The notes: generated by a model from the letters alone, not told the origin. A stretch of DNA of 38,166 nt from a virus (IMGVR_UViG_3300021247_000292:1-38166), one strand, 5' to 3'. Shown: positions 3,442 through 38,166, numbered from the stretch's first letter. Made by a program: numbers and translations.

Positions 3442-4403
3442 AATACTTTGCCTTTATGAATTCTCTTATTTCTAACCTCAAACTCATCACCAAATACATC
3501 TACTATTGCGAAGCCATGATTCCACTTATTGATGGGCAAGTATGCAGGGTGCAATTCCGATAAGCATCCCAAACTCCAAGTAGTTGTTATCTTGCCATTC
3601 ATATTGCTTTCGGTATGCTCTGAGGTTTGATGGTTATGCCCTTGCATAGCTGATACTTTGGCCCTCAAGAATAACCCCCTCGCAATGTTTACAGGACTGA
3701 ATACACTACCTCCAAACTCGTGTCCGTGAATAATGTTTAAATCCCCAGCTTTGATAATTCTTTTATCGCTGATTACATCAATACCTTCTGCTCTTGATTT
3801 GATAATTTCCTCTAACTTAAACTCATCTACACCATCCAACTCACCTGCTTTCATCCAAAGGAAATGATTGTAACGCTCCTCATGGTTGCCAAACTTAAAA
3901 TATATTTTGCAGTTGAATGTTCTTTGTAAGATAATGAAGAACTCCTTAAACGCATTTAACTCATCAGCAAATGACCTTTTGCCCGGTTCTTTTGCAAATC
4001 TTGACAACCCGAAAAAGTCCAATGTATCGCCATTCAATAATACGGCATCAGGCTTCTCTTTTTTTCCAAAGTCAAAAGCTGCCGTCAAAGATTCAATGCT
4101 ATGGTAAGGGATGTGAATATCCGATAGTACAAGTATCCGCTTGTGGTTAAGCATAAACGGCTCGTATTCAGTCTCATCGGTTGGCGGTAGATTATAAGGA
4201 TTCTTCGGTCTATCCTCACACTTGTGGGTTATTTTCGTTTCCTTACCTGATTTGCCTTCGATTCTTCTAAGGGATGTTCTTGCATCTTCGATATCTTTGA
4301 ATAGTAGATTATTCTCCTTGTACATTATCCGTGCAAGTTTCAAGGTTGGCATTTCCATACCGAACTTGTCCCGATACTTTCGTGCGATGGCTACTTTACT
4401 CAT
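3438..4403 (-). CDS. calcineurin-like metallophosphoesterase with N-terminal helical domain
   Basis: A 321-residue protein with the complete metallophosphoesterase signature: SDIH (Asp95, His97), NGD (Asp126), GNHE (172-175), HGHEF (226-230) and GHNH (255-258), which together build a two-metal phosphohydrolase site. Residues 1-50 form a basic helical domain (VAIARKYRDKFG), perhaps for nucleic-acid binding. Substrates of such phage enzymes range from nucleic-acid ends to cyclic nucleotides, and the sequence does not decide. It lies just after the lysozyme gene, so it is expressed with the late genes although it looks like a nucleic-acid enzyme. Confidence 0.88.
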   Translation of the reverse strand: MSKVAIARKYRDKFGMEMPTLKLARIMYKENNLLFKDIEDARTSLRRIEGKSGKETKITHKCEDRPKNPYNLPPTDETEYEPFMLNHKRILVLSDIHIPYHSIESLTAAFDFGKKEKPDAVLLNGDTLDFFGLSRFAKEPGKRSFADELNAFKEFFIILQRTFNCKIYFKFGNHEERYNHFLWMKAGELDGVDEFKLEEIIKSRAEGIDVISDKRIIKAGDLNIIHGHEFGGSVFSPVNIARGLFLRAKVSAMQGHNHQTSEHTESNMNGKITTTWSLGCLSELHPAYLPINKWNHGFAIVDVFGDEFEVRNKRIHKGKVL

Positions 4404-4412
4404 ATGTTGTGT

Positions 4413-4862
4413 TTATGGTTTAAAATATAAATCTGCCTCTGCTTGTCTGCGTCTTACCAACCCTTTTAACTCTTTGCCACCTGCCTTCGTGAATCGCATA
4501 AACTCACTACGGATGGTTTCATCTTTAGCGTTTTTGATAACTTTTTTAAGCATATCCGACTTTTGTAAAGTACCTATGCCCAAATTATAAGCAAACGATA
4601 CTAATGCCCCAAATTGGTTCTCATTTACATCTGTCCTAACCAATCTATCCACTCCACTCTCAAAGCGGCTTAAAATGGTCGAAAATAGCGTTATGGCTTG
4701 TTCTTTCGTTATGGTATCCCCTTTCTTAACGCTAACACCATTGGGATACATCGTATTGCCGTATCCTATTGTCCAAATACCAACGCTATCTTGATAGGCG
4801 GTAAGTTTACACCCTTCGAATGAGGTAATAAGTTTAATAGCTGCTGCGTTAGCTTTTCGCAT
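4413..4862 (-). CDS. T4-type lysozyme (GH24 endolysin)
   Basis: A 149-residue muramidase that cleaves host peptidoglycan for lysis. The catalytic triad has the same spacing as in T4 lysozyme (Glu11, Asp20, Thr26): Glu16 in SFEGCKLTAYQD, Asp25 and Thr31 in the following WTIGYGNT. The helical C-terminal part contains NENQFGALVSFAYNLG, typical of the family. There is no signal peptide, so export depends on a holin. Its start overlaps the upstream 87-residue gene by 14 nt, within a lysis cluster at 4413-5630. Confidence 0.92.
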   Translation of the reverse strand: MRKANAAAIKLITSFEGCKLTAYQDSVGIWTIGYGNTMYPNGVSVKKGDTITKEQAITLFSTILSRFESGVDRLVRTDVNENQFGALVSFAYNLGIGTLQKSDMLKKVIKNAKDETIRSEFMRFTKAGGKELKGLVRRRQAEADLYFKP

Positions 4863-6059: not shown

Positions 6060-8942
6060 TTAATTTCCTTCTGATACTTTTAACCAATTTGTTCCATCAG
6101 AAACAAGAGTTATATATCTATATTGTATTAATGTAGTCCAAGTTGAAGCACCGTTTATCAATCCGCTTGTAGTGTTTACAGTCAATAAATTAGCAGTTGA
6201 ATCTATTTTTATAATTGTATATTCTGTACCTGCAACGTGATTTGGTAAAGTTAGCGTAAATGCGCCAGTTGCTAAATCAGCAAAAATAATCCTATCTAAT
6301 GTTGTTAAAGTATAAGCAGATGTTTTTCTTGAATTTGCGTGAACTCTCCCCGTTGTTGTAAGTACATTTTGAATTCTGCTCGTACCATTTATATCTAACT
6401 TATAACCTGAATTTGAATTACCAGTACCTATTCCAACATTACCTCCAGCAAATATTCTTATTTTTTCAGATATTGCAGTACCTCCATTTTGAGTAAAGAA
6501 TACTAAATCACCTGATTCTGCACCTGCTGTATTATTAAGATTTTGAATTTGTATCGCTGCACGGGCAATATGCGAAGCACCATTACCTGCGGTAAACACA
6601 ACTCCATTTGTGTTGTGAAGCCTTATACTTGTATTACCAGCAGATACAGTAGCCAAGCCAAAAACCCCTTGCGCTGCAAATAATGAACCCCCATTAGTTG
6701 TGGCATAATTGATAGCACTATTATTGCTATTATTAAATCCGCCTATAACTTGAGTTGCGTGGCTTAATGAATTAGAAGATGCGTAGAAATTTCCACCTGT
6801 TAGCGTGATATTACTTGTTACGGTTAATAATCCCGATGAGTTACCTGCAATATTCAAAACATTCACATAACTACCCCCTTCTTGGACTCCTATATTTAAA
6901 GCCGTTCCCCAAGAACTTGGTAAAGATGTAAAAGAACGAATGTAACTTGTTATATATCCAAAAGGTTGATTATCACTTGTGTTTACTTTACCTTGTAGCA
7001 ATATTCTTTGTCCAAATCCAACAGCAGTTGTTGCTGAACTACTAATTAAATATGTACCAACATCTTGAGTTGTAGTTGTTAATGCACCTGTATTTGTGAA
7101 ATTAAATGCACCTCTTACATCAAGCGGTGTTGTTGGTGATGCCGTTCCTATTCCTAATCTTTTATTCGTATTGTCCCAAAAGAAATTGGTATTATCTTGT
7201 GCCAATACACCTGATGTCCCTGCAAATAGAATACTACCTGCCGTTGCACTTGTTATACTACCTCCTATTGCCATTCCACCACCTCCCGATGAGGCTGCCC
7301 ATTTAGGTGCGTTTGTTGCGGTGTCATAAGTCAACACCCATCCATTTGTTCCTGAACCTGCAAGTCTTGTTGCTACTCCTGACGCTCCTCCGTAAATGAT
7401 ATCCCCAGCAGTAGTCATCGGATTAGCAAATCCTCCCAAACCTGCAAGGGTATAGGTAGGAATGTTTAAAGTATTGCTAACTAATGTGGCACTTCCGCTA
7501 CTTCCTGTTGTTGTAAGTGATGTAATTCTATTGGTGTAAGCAGTATCCCAATTCGTTTGAGATGCCGTAGTAGGTATCCCATATCCTGATGTTGTTGACC
7601 ATACCCCCGTAGTTGAATTATAGTCTAACCCTGTTACGGAATCTGTAATAGCTAATCTTGCTAAAGCATCCGTGTATTGCGTGATGGTATTGGTAATCGT
7701 ATTACCTACTCTGCTTAACCCTGTACCAAATGTTAATGCTGATTCCTTACTATTGAATGTTGACCAATCCGCAGAAGATAATACACCTCTATTACTTGCA
7801 GATGCCGTTGGTACATTTAGCGTTATTACGGGTGTGGTTGTGCCGTTTGCTACTGTTGAGGACAAGTCAGTACCGCTTGTGCCTAATGTTAAAGCGGCTA
7901 CTGAACTAACCGTACCGGGTGTATACCCCAACACCGATGATATAGATGCGGTTTTCCATTGGTTGCCTCCAAAATAATATAAGACATCATTAGTTGAAGG
8001 TGTCTGCGCTTGTACGTTGTGCAATTCATCAAGTTCATACCCATTCTGCACTCGAACATACATTCTACCTGCGTTGCCATTACTTGCCGTAGTAACCACC
8101 CCTAAGTACACAAGATGATTCGGGGCATAAGGTTTTACATTTGTGATGCTTCCTGCCGTAGAACCTAAGTATATCGGGTCTCCATCGGCAAAGGTTGATG
8201 TCGGTAAGATATTTAACCCATCAAGTAGACCTTGTATAATTATCAACCCCTTTTGATTTGCCGAAATACTTGAAGATAATACCAACCCCACCGTCTTCGC
8301 TGAGGTAGCATCACCTGTATTGTATGCTCGTTTAACCGTCATTCTATCGCCAGTACCTCCAAACGCATATACAGGCATACCTTTAGTGATAGCTACACTA
8401 TCTGCGTTAGTTACATAAGCTAATAGCGTGTTAGGTCCAGTACCTATCGCTTGGAATCCATTTAAAGTTGAGTTGTAAACGCATAGCATCTCACCGCCAT
8501 CTACAATATCCCCACCTATCAATGCGCCATCATTATTTCTATATAATGCTTTAGCACCTAAGCTATTAATATTAAGTGTGCATCCTGTTGTATTGCCATT
8601 GGTAAAACGAATTAAATAAGCATCGCCATCGGCATAGCTTGTAACACCCGTAATAGTAGCCGTGTAAGTATCAGTACCCGATGCAGTTGCGTGTTTGATA
8701 CCTTTGATTGCATCTATCTGCCCTTGAATATTACTCGTTGCGCCATCAAGATAATCGAATTCGGTATTAGTTACTTTACCCGTACTTATATTAAGCGCAT
8801 CAATGCCTGTGGGCATATCCGCAGCTTCAAGATTACGAAAAACAAAGTCATAGTCATCGTTGGTAGCCTTTGACAATATTGTTTTAACTGCGCCTCCTTT
8901 TAACTCAAAAGGCAATTTACCTAAATCTCTACTTCTTGCCAT
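6060..8942 (-). CDS. tail fibre / receptor-binding protein, 960 aa
   Basis: The longest gene. The N-terminus carries a fibre-type segment (EFDYLDGATSNIQGQIDAIK, about residues 60-79). A long Thr/Ser/Gly/Asn-rich beta region follows, with repeated fibre phrases such as SNRGVLSSADWSTFNSK and the two NKRLGIGTASPTTPLDVRG and GNVGIGTGNSNSGYKLDING repeats. The C-terminal domain (about 870-960) is beta-rich and ends SDGTNWLKVSEGN. Such GIGT...LDVxG repeats are typical of Bacteroidetes phage fibres and adhesins. It follows the tail-terminator/adaptor gene by overlap (position 8942 shared) and is probably the main host-range determinant. I see no chaperone or endosialidase-type peptidase motif. Confidence 0.85.
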   Translation of the reverse strand: MARSRDLGKLPFELKGGAVKTILSKATNDDYDFVFRNLEAADMPTGIDALNISTGKVTNTEFDYLDGATSNIQGQIDAIKGIKHATASGTDTYTATITGVTSYADGDAYLIRFTNGNTTGCTLNINSLGAKALYRNNDGALIGGDIVDGGEMLCVYNSTLNGFQAIGTGPNTLLAYVTNADSVAITKGMPVYAFGGTGDRMTVKRAYNTGDATSAKTVGLVLSSSISANQKGLIIIQGLLDGLNILPTSTFADGDPIYLGSTAGSITNVKPYAPNHLVYLGVVTTASNGNAGRMYVRVQNGYELDELHNVQAQTPSTNDVLYYFGGNQWKTASISSVLGYTPGTVSSVAALTLGTSGTDLSSTVANGTTTPVITLNVPTASASNRGVLSSADWSTFNSKESALTFGTGLSRVGNTITNTITQYTDALARLAITDSVTGLDYNSTTGVWSTTSGYGIPTTASQTNWDTAYTNRITSLTTTGSSGSATLVSNTLNIPTYTLAGLGGFANPMTTAGDIIYGGASGVATRLAGSGTNGWVLTYDTATNAPKWAASSGGGGMAIGGSITSATAGSILFAGTSGVLAQDNTNFFWDNTNKRLGIGTASPTTPLDVRGAFNFTNTGALTTTTQDVGTYLISSSATTAVGFGQRILLQGKVNTSDNQPFGYITSYIRSFTSLPSSWGTALNIGVQEGGSYVNVLNIAGNSSGLLTVTSNITLTGGNFYASSNSLSHATQVIGGFNNSNNSAINYATTNGGSLFAAQGVFGLATVSAGNTSIRLHNTNGVVFTAGNGASHIARAAIQIQNLNNTAGAESGDLVFFTQNGGTAISEKIRIFAGGNVGIGTGNSNSGYKLDINGTSRIQNVLTTTGRVHANSRKTSAYTLTTLDRIIFADLATGAFTLTLPNHVAGTEYTIIKIDSTANLLTVNTTSGLINGASTWTTLIQYRYITLVSDGTNWLKVSEGN

Positions 8943-9901
8943 TAGTCATATTTTATAATTTCAACAATATCATCCAATTGCGCAGCTATTGCGATAGTTA
9001 CCGATGTGCCATTAGTAGCGGTGAACTCCGATGGTATCAATTTAACACCATTAAAATATACCTCAATCTTGCCGACACTATAACCTCCCGTTACATTGTA
9101 AGTATTCTGCCCCGATGTCGAGGTGAATACTTGCGATGTACCTGTACCTGTTGTGCCTTTTATTGTCATTTGATATATCCATACACCAGCAATCTTCTTG
9201 TAAACATTGCCCGTAATATTATCCAAATAAAAGTCAGAATTCTTACCCAATGTCGCAAGTGGCACACCATCTCCGCTATACCAAATCGTAGGCCCTAATC
9301 CATAACCCGTTACAATGCTACCATTGACAACATAAGGGTTTCCGTTGTTCCCATCGTTGATGATAACCCCTTGAAACACATTCTCTTCGATTTCTAATAT
9401 TGGATTTGCAATAGTAGCTTCGGTTACAATAGCCGAATCTTGAGCAGATGCCACAAGGTCAATAAAGTGAGATGAATACTCCACAACGCACAAGTAAGTA
9501 TTATCGTGTGCATAGTCAAGTTGCACTCCCACACGCTGAAGGTGTGAGCAGTTGGCAGGTTTAAATCTGTTCAATGCCCGATGTACTGAATTGACAATGT
9601 CGGTGAAGTCTAAATCTTGTTCGTAAGTACCATCACCTGCATCGAGTTGTTGGTGTTCAATCATCACCCGAAAGGTAACATCGTAAGCGGTTGCCCCTTG
9701 CCCGATAGGTATACCTTGCCCGAACTGCCACTCAACAAACGCAGCAGGTGTTGGGTAGCTATATGTTGCGCCTTGCTTTTTTAACTCCGTCTGATTATTC
9801 CACACACGGGTGTAGATGCTAACCGTCTGCCCATCATTGTTATTGACTTGCACCGTGCCTATCTGCGTGAGTATTGATTCTATGCTCTCTCTGATGCCCA
9901 T
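8942..9901 (-). CDS. tail terminator-like domain fused to a fibre-adaptor-like domain, 319 aa
   Basis: Two parts are visible. Residues 1-150 (WNNQTELKKQGATYSYPTPA, VTFRVMIEHQQLDAGD) look like a tail-terminator or DUF1834-type minor tail protein. Residues about 195-319 resemble tail-fibre adaptors: IWYSGDGVPLATLGKNSDFY, then NVYKKIAGVW, a Gly/Thr linker, and a final beta domain with GKIEVYFNGVKLIPSEFTA. WYSGxGVP...NVYKKxxGVW segments are usual in collagen-like fibre proteins. The gene sits between baseplate genes and the fibre, so the C-terminal part may connect the fibre to the tail. The N-terminal assignment is tentative. Confidence 0.6.
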   Translation of the reverse strand: MGIRESIESILTQIGTVQVNNNDGQTVSIYTRVWNNQTELKKQGATYSYPTPAAFVEWQFGQGIPIGQGATAYDVTFRVMIEHQQLDAGDGTYEQDLDFTDIVNSVHRALNRFKPANCSHLQRVGVQLDYAHDNTYLCVVEYSSHFIDLVASAQDSAIVTEATIANPILEIEENVFQGVIINDGNNGNPYVVNGSIVTGYGLGPTIWYSGDGVPLATLGKNSDFYLDNITGNVYKKIAGVWIYQMTIKGTTGTGTSQVFTSTSGQNTYNVTGGYSVGKIEVYFNGVKLIPSEFTATNGTSVTIAIAAQLDDIVEIIKYD

Positions 9902-30797: not shown

Positions 30798-31322
30798 TTA
30801 CCTATTTACTTCCCAACTTTGGGAAAATTCTTGATTTCTAAATAATGCCGCTAATCCTGTTATTTGTTTTAATCGCAACAACTCATCAGCACTCATTCCA
30901 ATATGCTTACAAATCCACAAATCTCCTTTTCCCATTTCAACTAACTCAGTAACAATATTACTCATCAACTCAATATTGTGTGTTCCCCTTGCTCTATTGT
31001 GCCTAATGGTTGATGCCATTCTTTCGCCTAATTCTTTTTCAATTACTACAACGGGTAAACACCCATTCTCTCTGTCAAATATGTCTTTGTTTTCTCTTAT
31101 TACCCTATATCTGTGAAATCCATCTACAACTATATATTTATCTAAATCTTTATCATAAAAGCATACCACAGGCTGCGTGTAACCATCCTCTCTAATTGAT
31201 ATTTTTAATAATTCCATTTCAGGAGGAGCAACTGAGTTTGGATTATATTCGTTTGCCTGTATTTTGTCAACAGGTATCGCCATTACATTATAAACTGGAC
31301 TTTTAAATTTCATAACTTCCAT
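30798..31322 (-). CDS. IbrB-like ParB/Srx-fold protein, 174 aa
   Basis: A ParB-like protein of the IbrB type. The signature runs IPVDKIQANEYNPNSVAPPE (about 17-36), ISIREDGYTQPVV (41-53), YIVVDGFHRYRV (64-75), RMASTIRHNRARGTHNIELM (about 101-120) and LRLKQITGLAALFRNQEFS near the end. This phrase set is characteristic of IbrB and its phage relatives, always paired with an IbrA PP-loop protein. Here an ectoine-synthase-like gene is inserted between the two. The start Met1 overlaps the cupin gene by 20 nt, and Met4 is an alternative. Biochemical activity of the family is not established to my knowledge. Confidence 0.85.
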   Translation of the reverse strand: MEVMKFKSPVYNVMAIPVDKIQANEYNPNSVAPPEMELLKISIREDGYTQPVVCFYDKDLDKYIVVDGFHRYRVIRENKDIFDRENGCLPVVVIEKELGERMASTIRHNRARGTHNIELMSNIVTELVEMGKGDLWICKHIGMSADELLRLKQITGLAALFRNQEFSQSWEVNR

Positions 31323-31680
31323 CTTTTTTATGTGTTTCTGTTCCTTTTACTGGGGGATTAAAAATTGATATTAATACTACATCTGTTAATGCTTCAAATG
31401 TATGATTATCATGTTTATCTAATGAATAAATTACATCTGGAGTTATTTCGTATTTTTCTCCTGTGTCTAAAGATGTTAAAATTCCTTTTCCTGATATACA
31501 ATAACAACTTTCTAAATGATTTTTATAATGCCAATGACCTATAGTGCCTTTTCGTATCATTGTTTTATGAACACTAAAACCCATACCATCAGATGCTATT
31601 ACTGGTCGCATACTATAACCCTCTTTAAATTTGATTTCTCTATTAGTACTAACTAATTGATTTACATCTATTACTTTCAT
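31303..31680 (-). CDS. ectoine-synthase (EctC)-like cupin, 125 aa
   Basis: The protein aligns with EctC over its whole length: SDGMGFSVHKTMI (30-42), HYKNHLESCYCISGKG (51-66), VIYSLDKHDNHTF (83-95), SIFNPPVKGTETHKKDGSYE (105-124). The EctC iron ligands, from memory Glu57, Tyr85 and His93 in the Paenibacillus lautus enzyme, are present at the same numbers. Arg25, Thr40, Phe107, Glu115 and His117 also coincide with residues I recall near the substrate. It is coupled by ATGA to the IbrA-like gene upstream and overlaps the IbrB-like gene downstream. No EctA or EctB is encoded, so it either acts on a host metabolite or has another cyclisation substrate. Confidence 0.8.
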   Translation of the reverse strand: MKVIDVNQLVSTNREIKFKEGYSMRPVIASDGMGFSVHKTMIRKGTIGHWHYKNHLESCYCISGKGILTSLDTGEKYEITPDVIYSLDKHDNHTFEALTDVVLISIFNPPVKGTETHKKDGSYEI

Positions 31681-32972
31681 AATTTTGAATATTTATGTTT
31701 TATTTGTTTTAATCTTTCTAATTTATCTTTTGTTGGAGCAAGACCCATGTATTTACATGTATGGTCATTTTTTAGTATAGTAATTGCAAATCTTTTCCAA
31801 CTCGCAACATCGCTATGATTACCACTTAACTCATCAACATGGTCAGGAAAAGATTTTATTATGATTCTGTCTAATTCTTTTTTTCCGTGTGCTGTTTTCC
31901 CGTTTATTTCAAAATCAACACCAATTTCTTTTAATTCTTTTATTGTTTTTGGTTTTAGACCTCTGCCAACTCGACCCCAATATTTAAAAGATTGAACAAA
32001 ACGCATTTTATAATGATTTGCTGTTTCTTTAGGTAGTGTGTTAAGTAAAAATTTTGTAAATGATTTCCATGTGTGTTTTGGCGGAAGATTAAATGATTTG
32101 TAATCCAACTGTTTCCCATATGTTGCTACAAAATTAGCACCCATTACTCTTGCACACAATCTTTGCCATACGGATGGGTCTATTACTCTGTAAAGATTTA
32201 ATGATGATTTACTTTCGCTCATAAATGGACTTGCTACACGCATTTGTGAAATATTCAACCCGGCCATATAAAATACATTATATAGTTCATTATAATTCCA
32301 TCCAAATTTTGCATTTGCTACCCATATATCTTTTGTTCTCCAATCATAAATAGGATAGCAATTAAATACGTTTTTAGTGTTTTTTTTAGTCCAATTCTTT
32401 CCTTTCAAAGTTTCCTTTTGTTCATTTGCTATTGCTCTAAATCTATTTAAACTTTCATCAGCTCTAATTCCTATAAGATTGGCTGTTAATTTACCTTCAG
32501 AATACCATTCAGAAAAATTATCCCAAAAATCAGAATAACTCATATTTTCTTTAAAAAAAGTAAACTTATGATTGTAAATATTTACAATATAATCTTCTTT
32601 AGGCATTGGTCTTATCCACCTTTGTTCATCATTAACCCCCCAACATTGCCAATTAGTTTCATAAGAAGAAACAGTACAAGGAAGAGTTATGGGCAAACAA
32701 CACCAATATACTTCAAGAATGTCTAAATTTTCTTTTATAATTTTGTGCATAAATTTTAAAGAGTATTCATAGTTAGCCTCATTATCTAATATTTGAACTC
32801 CAACTTTTTTAGTAATTTTATGTTTTCTGACATAATCAATGACAATATTTAATAAAACCCCACTATCTTTTCCGCCAGAAAAAGAAACATAAACTTTTTC
32901 AAAATTTAAAAAAATAAATTCAATTCTTTGCATTGCAGCATCGTAAACATTTATGTCTATATATTTTTTCAT
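31677..32972 (-). CDS. IbrA-like PP-loop (PAPS reductase-type, DUF3440) protein, 431 aa
   Basis: Residues 30-37 are the PP-loop SFSGGKDS, which binds ATP in adenylating enzymes of the PAPS-reductase/DndC/TilS type. Family features are VEVYWCCLP-like (EVYWCCLPITLPCTVSSYET, about 87-106), WGVNDEQRWIRPMP (about 110-123), TANLIGIRADESLNRFRA (about 163-180) and CYPIYDWRTKDIWVANAKFG (about 203-222). These are typical of IbrA/DUF3440. It is the upstream partner of the EctC-like and IbrB-like genes (ATGA overlap) and is itself coupled to the SNF2-type helicase. The target of the ATP-driven chemistry is unknown. Confidence 0.85.
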   Translation of the reverse strand: MKKYIDINVYDAAMQRIEFIFLNFEKVYVSFSGGKDSGVLLNIVIDYVRKHKITKKVGVQILDNEANYEYSLKFMHKIIKENLDILEVYWCCLPITLPCTVSSYETNWQCWGVNDEQRWIRPMPKEDYIVNIYNHKFTFFKENMSYSDFWDNFSEWYSEGKLTANLIGIRADESLNRFRAIANEQKETLKGKNWTKKNTKNVFNCYPIYDWRTKDIWVANAKFGWNYNELYNVFYMAGLNISQMRVASPFMSESKSSLNLYRVIDPSVWQRLCARVMGANFVATYGKQLDYKSFNLPPKHTWKSFTKFLLNTLPKETANHYKMRFVQSFKYWGRVGRGLKPKTIKELKEIGVDFEINGKTAHGKKELDRIIIKSFPDHVDELSGNHSDVASWKRFAITILKNDHTCKYMGLAPTKDKLERLKQIKHKYSKL

Positions 32973-34168
32973 AATTCTTTTTTTAATTGTTTTATATCCA
33001 TTTCTACAAATACATCAAGTAAATTTCTTTTTCTTTCAATGTTTTGATTTATCATTTTTTCAAGGCCTACATTGCCAGTCAAATCATAGTAAATACAATT
33101 TGATATTTGTCCTGTGCGAAATATTCTTCTTTCTATTTGTTCTCGTTGGGCATAATCCCAAGTCTTATCCCAAAATATTATTGTATTGTAATCTTGCAAA
33201 TTCAATCCGTAAGAATGTTTTTGTAGACTCATTATTTTAACATCCTTATAATGTTTTGAAAGCACTTCTTGCGAATTAATATATTTAGCATAAATTAAAA
33301 CTTTTGATTTGTCAATTTTTGATAACAATTTATCTACTATTTTAAATTTTGAAGGACTTAAAGAATAGTTGTGTTGCATTTTTTGAGTAATCTCTAAAAA
33401 TATATTATTATTCATTGCAATTAAAATTTCATTATCTAAATATTTTTCTTTTAATTTTTCATGTTGTTCTTTTTCTTCATCAGTTAAAGTGTAATCAATA
33501 TTAATATGTTGTTGTCCGATACTTAGTGATAATTTGCTTTCAAAAATAAAAGGCTCAATTAATGAATATAGATAATCAATGTTGTGATATTTTTTTATAA
33601 ATTCTTTCGTATTAGATTTTCCAAAACCCGGTGAATGATAGATTATTTTAATATACTCACAAAAAGTATTTTTAAATTCAGGTAATCCCATTTTTAATAT
33701 TTTTGGAGATAAAAATTCCATTTGAGACCATAAGTCAAGTAAATTTCTGCTTAATGGAGTTCCATTTAATATTATTCGATATTCTGATTTTTCAGATAAT
33801 TGCAAAAGTCTATGTGTTCGTTTGGCATCAGCATTTTTTATTTTTAAACTTTCATCTACAACAATAAATGCTCTTTTAGCTACTTCGCATTTTTGTAAAT
33901 ATTTTAAAAATATTCTATCGCTGTTTTGGATGCTTTCAATGCCCACTATATCACAATCTAAACCACCCCATTTATTTATTTCATTTTGTAAATTTGCTTT
34001 TGTTTGAAAAGGGGTAAACCACAAAACATAATCTGCATTAGTATTTTTTATAAGTTCTAAAGCAGAACGAGTTTTACCTGTACCAGCTTCCATAAATAAA
34101 GCACCACACTTGACAGTATTTAATTTATCTATCGCTTTTATTTGGCTATCTAAAAAGGTCTGAATCAT
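32969..34168 (-). CDS. SNF2-family DEAD-like helicase, 399 aa
   Basis: A compact SF2 ATPase of the phage SNF2 type. Walker A is MEAGTGKT (about 26-33), motif II is VVDESLKIKN (about 102-111), motif III LNGTPLSRN, and the C-terminal lobe carries YGLNLQDYNTIIFWDKTW and QREQIERRIFRTGQ (motif VI Arg fingers). It translocates on double-stranded DNA rather than unwinding. It is translationally coupled to the IbrA-like gene by ATGA and to the 93-residue gene by a 23-nt overlap. Codon use is very AT-rich, like its neighbours. Confidence 0.88.
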   Translation of the reverse strand: MIQTFLDSQIKAIDKLNTVKCGALFMEAGTGKTRSALELIKNTNADYVLWFTPFQTKANLQNEINKWGGLDCDIVGIESIQNSDRIFLKYLQKCEVAKRAFIVVDESLKIKNADAKRTHRLLQLSEKSEYRIILNGTPLSRNLLDLWSQMEFLSPKILKMGLPEFKNTFCEYIKIIYHSPGFGKSNTKEFIKKYHNIDYLYSLIEPFIFESKLSLSIGQQHINIDYTLTDEEKEQHEKLKEKYLDNEILIAMNNNIFLEITQKMQHNYSLSPSKFKIVDKLLSKIDKSKVLIYAKYINSQEVLSKHYKDVKIMSLQKHSYGLNLQDYNTIIFWDKTWDYAQREQIERRIFRTGQISNCIYYDLTGNVGLEKMINQNIERKRNLLDVFVEMDIKQLKKEL

Positions 34169-37682: not shown

Positions 37683-38166
37683 TTAAAATAATGTATTTTG
37701 TTTTGTGTTTGATTTCATAATTATTCCTAAAGCTGTTGCTAATATTGTTTTACCTGCCTCATAATCAACAAGGTTTCGACCTATTTTAATCAAACTTTGT
37801 TCGCCTTTGTAACTTGTTAAATCAATTTTATGAAACTTGCAAAGTTCTTGTAATTCGTTTTTTGTTTGTGAAATTGCAAATCTTCTATCATTCAAATTAC
37901 TTGGTAAATTAAAGTTTGTCCAATATAAATGCCTACCTCTTTTTTTTGCAGGTATCAATGGCTCATAGTAAGGAATTACATTTTCAACTACATATTTACC
38001 TGTTCTGAAATAATGTTGCAAAAAAAGTATTTCTTCATATAGTTTCATATCCGGGTAAATAGCTTCTGTTTTTGTACCATAATTTGAACTTGACCAATAT
38101 CTTGCCCTTGAATGACTTGGACAAGGTGGCGAACTCCAAATAAAATCAAACTCTTTGTAATGGTCA
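37683..38166 (-). CDS. DNA cytosine-5 methyltransferase, C-terminal part (joins 185..1 across the window end)
   Basis: Starting at 38166 (third base of the codon begun at 2-1), this part encodes residues 62-222. It holds the catalytic motif IV SSPPCPSHS (Cys77), motif VI VVENV (Glu123), a motif VIII-like GRHLYWTNF (about 139-147) and a closing RNLVDYEAGKTILATALGII segment resembling motifs IX-X. A short ORF beginning at 38048 is only the distal part of this gene. The catalytic Pro-Cys and Glu-Asn-Val are intact, so the enzyme should be active. The stop TAA abuts the ATG of the DnaA-like gene. Confidence 0.9.
   Translation of the reverse strand, partial: DHYKEFDFIWSSPPCPSHSRARYWSSSNYGTKTEAIYPDMKLYEEILFLQHYFRTGKYVVENVIPYYEPLIPAKKRGRHLYWTNFNLPSNLNDRRFAISQTKNELQELCKFHKIDLTSYKGEQSLIKIGRNLVDYEAGKTILATALGIIMKSNTKQNTLF

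Follow-up and report, generated by a model that had tools for sequence, protein, structure and literature searches.

The question raised by this locus is whether an ectoine-synthase-like (EctC-like) cupin, encoded in a phage between an IbrA-type PP-loop protein and an IbrB-type ParB-like protein, forms one system with them and, if so, what that system might do. The sequence analyzed (hereafter "the window") comprised the 38,166 bases of an IMG/VR virus record (IMGVR_UViG_3300021247_000292), in which terminase, portal, and tape-measure genes were also present. On the minus strand, from position 34168 to 30798, four genes were found in the transcription order SNF2 > IbrA > EctC-like cupin > IbrB, with overlaps along the run (calculated from the coordinates) of 4, 4, and 20 nt. 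The genes and their junctions, with profile scores and the respective cut-offs where used, were as follows:

32969..34168 (-): SNF2-family helicase, 399 aa, at the head of the run; PF00176 53.9 bits (cut-off 24.9), phrog_62 219 bits
32969..32972 (-): ATGA overlap of the SNF2 stop and the IbrA start
31677..32972 (-): IbrA, PP-loop ATP pyrophosphatase with DUF3440, 431 aa; PF11922 201 bits (cut-off 25), PF01507 33.7 bits (cut-off 22.5), phrog_2302 372 bits
31677..31680 (-): ATGA overlap of the IbrA stop and the cupin start
31303..31680 (-): EctC-like cupin, 125 aa; PF06339 (Ectoine_synth) 148 bits (cut-off 27), NF009806 (ectoine synthase) 149.9 bits (cut-off 128)
31303..31322 (-): 20-nt overlap of the cupin end and the IbrB start
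30798..31322 (-): IbrB, ParB-like protein, 174 aa; PF02195 28.6 bits (cut-off 26.3), phrog_2159 267 bits

The three genes were present where the initial annotation had placed them, and the profile searches backed all of their identities. The ATGA coupling described between SNF2 and IbrA was borne out, and the same tetranucleotide was found to join IbrA to the cupin. The IbrB-first order given earlier, however, was that of the plus strand; transcription runs IbrA first. All of the genes were intact, and dN/dS values against the closest relative were 0.09 for IbrA and 0.15 for the cupin. At the end of the window (37683-38165), a partial gene contained a PPC motif that, by eye, suggests a DNA cytosine methyltransferase; it matched none of the PHROGs.

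Recurrence and linkage of the genes

Viral contigs were scanned with an alignment of the cupin, which yielded 207 relatives, and the best 80 of these 207 were taken for neighborhood analysis. IbrA was located on the same fragment in 78 of the 80, and IbrA or IbrB adjoined the cupin in 79; in the remaining case (L063), the IbrB reading begins at the contig end. When the search was based on IbrA instead, a cupin was found in 80/80 close IbrA relatives. After the removal of near-copies, the cupin and IbrA occurred together in 115 distinct loci. The order IbrA > cupin > IbrB was observed in 105 of these (median gaps of 13 and 12 nt), and the cupin and IbrB occupied a single reading frame in 41 (gene calls) to 45 (stop-free frames) of the 115. 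Three annotated, cultured phages carried the trio: the cupin and IbrB were fused in the Mycobacterium phages Gaia and Nebkiss, and they were separate genes in the Pseudoalteromonas phage XCL1123. The trio was also found in two bacterial metagenome-assembled genomes (MAGs). No plasmid record covered 80% of the Gaia fusion with matches to both its cupin and its IbrB half, and the plasmid cupin matches, among those listed, were annotated ectoine synthases.

A chance arrangement is excluded because the trio recurs in 115 distinct loci; it is real and widespread. The proposal that the three genes form one system was upheld by these loci together with the cupin-IbrB fusions, and the initial annotation's proviso, that a trio confined to this genome would undo the idea of a shared pathway, did not come into play. 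Within the clade of IbrA proteins described below, IbrA, the EctC-derived cupin, and IbrB form a genetically inseparable set, and it is nearly certain that they are functionally linked. From the fusions it can be seen which parts work together. The arrangement had also been called unfamiliar. This was correct in that no paper describing the trio was found in the open-access journal literature searched, but GenBank records already label genes of Gaia and XCL1123 "ectoine synthase/ParB multidomain protein".

Most phage IbrA/IbrB pairs carry no cupin. In a tree of 146 IbrA proteins, the cupin-linked sequences formed one clade (SH-aLRT 99), which is separate from the IbrA proteins of cupin-less cassettes and adjoins a Gram-positive group having the order SNF2 > IbrA > IbrB. 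Two members without a full cupin were nested in the clade. One (L149) has a damaged or partial cupin; in the other (L304), a 1-Cys peroxiredoxin gene (3868-4617) sits between IbrA and IbrB, where the cupin would be. This replacement was sought across the viral contigs and was found in the L304 contig only; it hints at redox or thiol chemistry. Clade-specific IbrA residues were many, and several were located in the PP-loop domain (N64, N67, C91, Q109, Y146, W150, and others), a pattern that would fit a changed substrate. Because the cupin-linked IbrA proteins form one clade with signature residues, the cupin is, judging by the tree, the marker of a subtype of the known phage IbrA/IbrB cassettes, and the tree likewise indicates a single origin for the cupin-linked IbrA proteins.

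Most trio loci also contain two further small genes, termed X (about 140 aa) and Y (about 90 aa). X was found in 107 of the 115; example X/Y loci are L002 (6341-6962), L015 (3368-3811), and L036 (1467-1727). Searches of X against Pfam and PHROGs gave nothing useful and assigned it to no known family, and Y resembles the end of DUF3440. Within the phage collection, X was present in five records, all of which also turned up in the IbrA search. Both are subject to fusion: in cupin-less phages, X is joined to IbrB; in L062, Y is joined to the N-terminus of IbrB; and in L044, X and Y are joined to each other. SNF2 was present in only 6/115 trio loci, and the window represents this variant. X and a stand-alone Y were not found in the window, in which the Y profile matched (27 bits) at 31692-31856, i.e. 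within IbrA, at the C-terminal end of DUF3440. SNF2 and X/Y look like alternative accessory modules because only one locus has both.

Predicted properties of the three proteins

The cupin is clearly an EctC-derived enzyme; its likeness to EctC, which the initial annotation had noted, is supported by the profile matches, the predicted fold, and the metal ligands. In a phmmer comparison with EctC structures, the window cupin matched 5onm with an E-value of 7.4e-27. The cupin half of a fused cupin-IbrB model superposed on EctC structures with Z-scores of 18-19 and rmsd values of 1.2-2.0 Å, and the next cupin had a Z-score of 13. The following positions in the window were assigned by alignment to EctC (PlEctC denotes the P. 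lautus enzyme numbering):

31510..31512 (-): cupin Glu-57, iron-ligand equivalent (PlEctC E57)
31426..31428 (-): cupin Tyr-85, iron-ligand equivalent (PlEctC Y84)
31402..31404 (-): cupin His-93, iron-ligand equivalent (PlEctC H92)
31618..31620 (-): cupin Gly-21, at the position of the substrate-binding Trp-21 of EctC

In PlEctC numbering, the predicted iron ligands were retained almost without exception among the phage cupins (E57 and Y84 in 209/209, H92 in 206/209). Thr-40, Tyr-52, Arg-25, and, in the lid, Glu-114 and His-116 were invariant across the 209, and Ser-23 was also kept; the likeness to the EctC proteins of P. lautus and S. alaskensis covers the fold, the iron ligands, these residues, and the lid. 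The phage cupins differ from EctC in other respects. Trp-21 was found in none of the 209 phage-type cupins but in 79/79 of the bacterial EctC proteins sampled, and residues specific to the phage cupins were conserved instead: C59 and F95 (both 209/209), H51 (201/209), and W50 (187/209). In a phylogenetic tree, the phage cupins were placed on a branch apart from bacterial EctC (support 99). The outgroup was MT835761 (L011), a phage-listed record that is itself a bacterial ectB-ectC fragment.

The loss of Trp-21 bears directly on substrate. In P. lautus EctC, this residue packs on the substrate, and the W21A variant retains 9.7% activity; the residue is conserved in 437 EctC proteins from ect clusters (PMC6344544). 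Genes for the preceding steps of ectoine synthesis were also missing: the EctA and EctB profiles (TIGR02407 and TIGR02406) had no match in the window record, EctB was not found in any IbrA locus examined, and neither of the two trio-bearing bacterial MAGs contained a second EctC. Because Trp-21 is lost and EctA and EctB are missing, the EctC-derived cupin is most likely not an ectoine synthase. By alignment, the cupin retains the EctC iron site but has an altered substrate pocket, and the substrate is probably other than that of EctC. Ring closure of the EctC type is a putative activity of the cupin, whose pocket is remodeled.

EctC-like proteins outside ectoine clusters have been noted before. 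The orphan EctC of P. syringae is able to make ectoine, and a basal EctC-like group confined to M. abscessus perhaps does not consist of ectoine synthases (PMC5924519). In our searches, many bacterial EctC proteins (L172-L240; Marinobacter and others) had no EctB detected within about 5 kb, and all of these retain Trp-21. The present system bears on the role of EctC-like proteins that lack EctA and EctB.

Two features of IbrA and one of IbrB were mapped:

32859..32885 (-): PP-loop motif SFSGGKDSG, IbrA residues 30-38; SFSGGKDS invariant or at least 97% conserved in 146 non-redundant IbrA proteins
31716..32261 (-): DUF3440 domain (PF11922) of IbrA, similar at its C-terminal end to the Y proteins that other trio loci encode separately
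31110..31127 (-): IbrB motif VDGFHR, within the N-terminal ParB domain; all 9 aligned IbrB proteins have DGFHR

The AlphaFold model of IbrA had a pLDDT of 83.5. Residues 3-264 matched PP-loop enzymes (Z-score 15.7), with folds like those of FAD synthase, ATP sulfurylase, and APS/PAPS reductases (Z-scores 13-16); the C-terminal half (265-431) was barely covered among the fold matches listed for the whole-protein model. IbrA carries the domain of a CysH-type enzyme, as its PF01507 score exceeds the cut-off, but not the catalytic cysteine: the ECG motif of PAPS reductases was not found, and cysteines 91, 92, 99, 110, 205, 273, and 406 are all located outside it. Of these residues, 91, 92, 99, 110, 273, and 406 are conserved. 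The IbrB half of the fused model matched the ParB-family repressor KorB (Z-score 12.6 over 145 residues); this match extends past the ParB fold into a region where model confidence is modest. Matches of IbrB to the SbnI and SerK profiles were weak. IbrB scored 22.6 bits against the ParB partition profile TIGR00180, far below the cut-off of 58.45, and assignment as a canonical ParB partition protein was rejected.

Candidate functions

The trio likely constitutes a new biochemical pathway. Our tentative preference, held at slightly less than an even chance, is for a single multi-enzyme pathway that acts on DNA or nucleotides. IbrA would activate (adenylate) a substrate with ATP via its PP-loop; the cupin, probably an Fe(II) enzyme, would then carry out an EctC-type condensation or elimination on a substrate different from that of EctC; IbrB, a putative NTP-binding ParB/KorB-like protein, would bring this chemistry to DNA; and access to the target would be provided by SNF2 or, in the majority of relatives, by X and Y. 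The target would most likely be DNA or a nucleotide made early in phage replication, and less likely tRNA or a free metabolite. This preference for DNA or nucleotides is an argument by analogy that draws on the KorB match of IbrB, the neighboring genes, and known pairings. Helicases, DNA polymerase, primase, and nucleases made up the largest families among annotated trio neighbors; in Dnd systems, a ParB-like protein is paired with a PP-loop protein (PMC10853773), and in Dpd systems, DpdA acts with the ParB-like DpdB (PMC12839542). The replication-gene neighborhood, however, also holds many unrelated phage genes, and modification of DNA or nucleotides as the function is our leading guess. A more specific version, in which the EctC-derived iron enzyme closes a ring of the cyclic-amidine type on a nucleic acid or nucleotide that IbrA activates and IbrB targets, is possible and, on balance, doubtful. 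We know of no phage or host modification system for which such ring-closing chemistry has been described.

The initial annotation had suggested that the pathway may work against host defense. Site statistics lent this idea no help. In the window, GATC, CTAG, and CGCG were absent (137, 77, and 33 expected, respectively), and CATG, CCGG, and GGCC were strongly depleted. GATC was absent where more than 8 sites were expected in 15/145 trio loci and in 2/68 cupin-less IbrAB loci, and palindrome avoidance was no weaker in the 145 trio loci than in the 68 cupin-less ones (Mann-Whitney p values of 0.08 and 0.10). From the absence of GATC and CTAG and the equal avoidance of palindromes, no broad protective DNA modification is apparent, and broad protection from restriction is unsupported. 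A modification that is aimed at one defense system, or that has a regulatory role, may be compatible with these statistics. The purpose is more likely to be escape from a specific defense, or control over how the phage's own DNA is expressed, replicated, or packaged, than general protection from restriction.

The substrate of EctC itself is a free amino-acid derivative; in H. elongata, the enzyme cyclizes glutamine too, as a side reaction (PMC6344544). The trio might make or destroy a compound able to diffuse (a signal, a modified nucleotide, or a cyclic amidine resembling ectoine) that aids the phage or disarms a nucleotide-signaling defense, with IbrB serving as an NTP-dependent kinase like SbnI and SerK, serine kinases of the same superfamily. 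The weak IbrB matches to these two profiles are in line with this idea, and the loss of Trp-21 from a protein with a retained iron site suggests a changed substrate over lost catalysis. It is nonetheless rather unlikely: IbrB resembles the DNA-binding ParB/KorB proteins over 145 residues, the annotated neighbors are mainly DNA-processing genes, and no recurrent amino-acid metabolism genes were seen beside the trio.

In E. coli, IbrAB is a co-activator of prophage eib genes according to the title of a 2002 paper cited in PMC10434257, which fits a regulatory role as well. IbrA and IbrB could accordingly switch on phage or prophage genes, the cupin being a small-molecule sensor on a ParB-like DNA-binding partner. 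Solved structures of XRE- and HTH_3-type cupin regulators were among the cupin's fold matches, and the cupin-IbrB fusion fits a sensor joined to a DNA-binding protein. An EctC iron site and lid that are conserved in nearly all of 209 copies exceed the needs of a sensor, however, and IbrA retains the full PP-loop motif; we regard this explanation as unlikely.

A role in sulfur or cysteine metabolism is more improbable still. IbrA would be PAPS-reductase-like and the cupin thiol-oxidizing, and together they would aid host sulfur supply or redox defense. The PF01507 match and PAPS-reductase fold of IbrA, the membership of IbrB in the ParB/sulfiredoxin superfamily, and the peroxiredoxin in the cupin's place in L304 are all consistent with such a role; in the M. 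abscessus prophage prophiGD21-3, moreover, a gene with a cysteine-dioxygenase motif is located near a PAPS-reductase-like gene (PMC8092301). Against it, the IbrA cysteines are outside the ECG motif, and L304 is a single case. Thiol dioxygenases have a three-His metal site, whereas that of the cupin is the Glu/Tyr/His site of EctC.

It is highly improbable that the phages took up the cupin for osmoprotection, as a metabolic gene that encodes a true ectoine synthase: the cupin exceeds the NCBIfam ectoine synthase cut-off and has a precedent in the competent orphan EctC of P. syringae, but the universal loss of a Trp whose replacement largely disables the P. lautus enzyme, the missing EctA, EctB, and other EctC genes, and a strict IbrA/IbrB linkage that is unexpected for osmoprotection led to the rejection of ectoine production as the main role.

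Relation to known systems

Among the closest known systems to the window cassette are the IbrA/IbrB cassettes of phages and E. coli (the ybdN/ybdM family; DUF3440 with ParB), in which homologous IbrA and IbrB genes are adjacent as they are here. In cupin-less cassettes of this kind, SNF2 is often positioned before or after IbrA/IbrB, adjoining them in phages of Streptococcus (CHPC877), Lactobacillus (phiAQ113), Flavobacterium (FCV-1), and Fusobacterium (phiFN37). They differ from the window in lacking the cupin and the conserved residues of the window-type IbrA clade. Gaia, Nebkiss, and XCL1123 carry the same trio as the window, but X and Y genes replace SNF2.

Two DNA-modification systems were also compared. 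Dnd phosphorothioation (DndC with DndB) is alike in pairing a PP-loop enzyme with a ParB-superfamily protein, and a PAPS-reductase-like gene of an M. abscessus prophage has been compared with DndC (PMC8092301). The window cassette differs in its added EctC-like cupin and in its IbrA, which scored 22.7 bits against the DndC profile TIGR03183, so far under the cut-off of 290.4 that Dnd membership was rejected; no other Dnd genes came to notice. The Dpd system (DpdA, the ParB-like DpdB, and the SNF2 protein DpdE) likewise has a ParB-like protein and an SNF2 helicase beside a modification enzyme. Dpd membership was rejected because a TGT-family DpdA (PF01702) was not found in the window record, which is possibly a fragment.

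IbrA (as "PAPS reductase") and IbrB occur commonly in phages and are widely labeled as sulfur-metabolism or partition genes. The cupin subtype offers a strong handle on them, as its known fold, metal site, and reaction type narrow the chemistry to be looked for. Three cultured phages, two of Mycobacterium and one of Pseudoalteromonas, carry the set, which makes the proposed pathway directly testable. As a separate observation, the Fusobacterium phage phiFN37 (L244) contains, besides IbrA/IbrB/SNF2, a second ParB-like gene (8748-9269) directly before a gene of the queuine tRNA-ribosyltransferase type.
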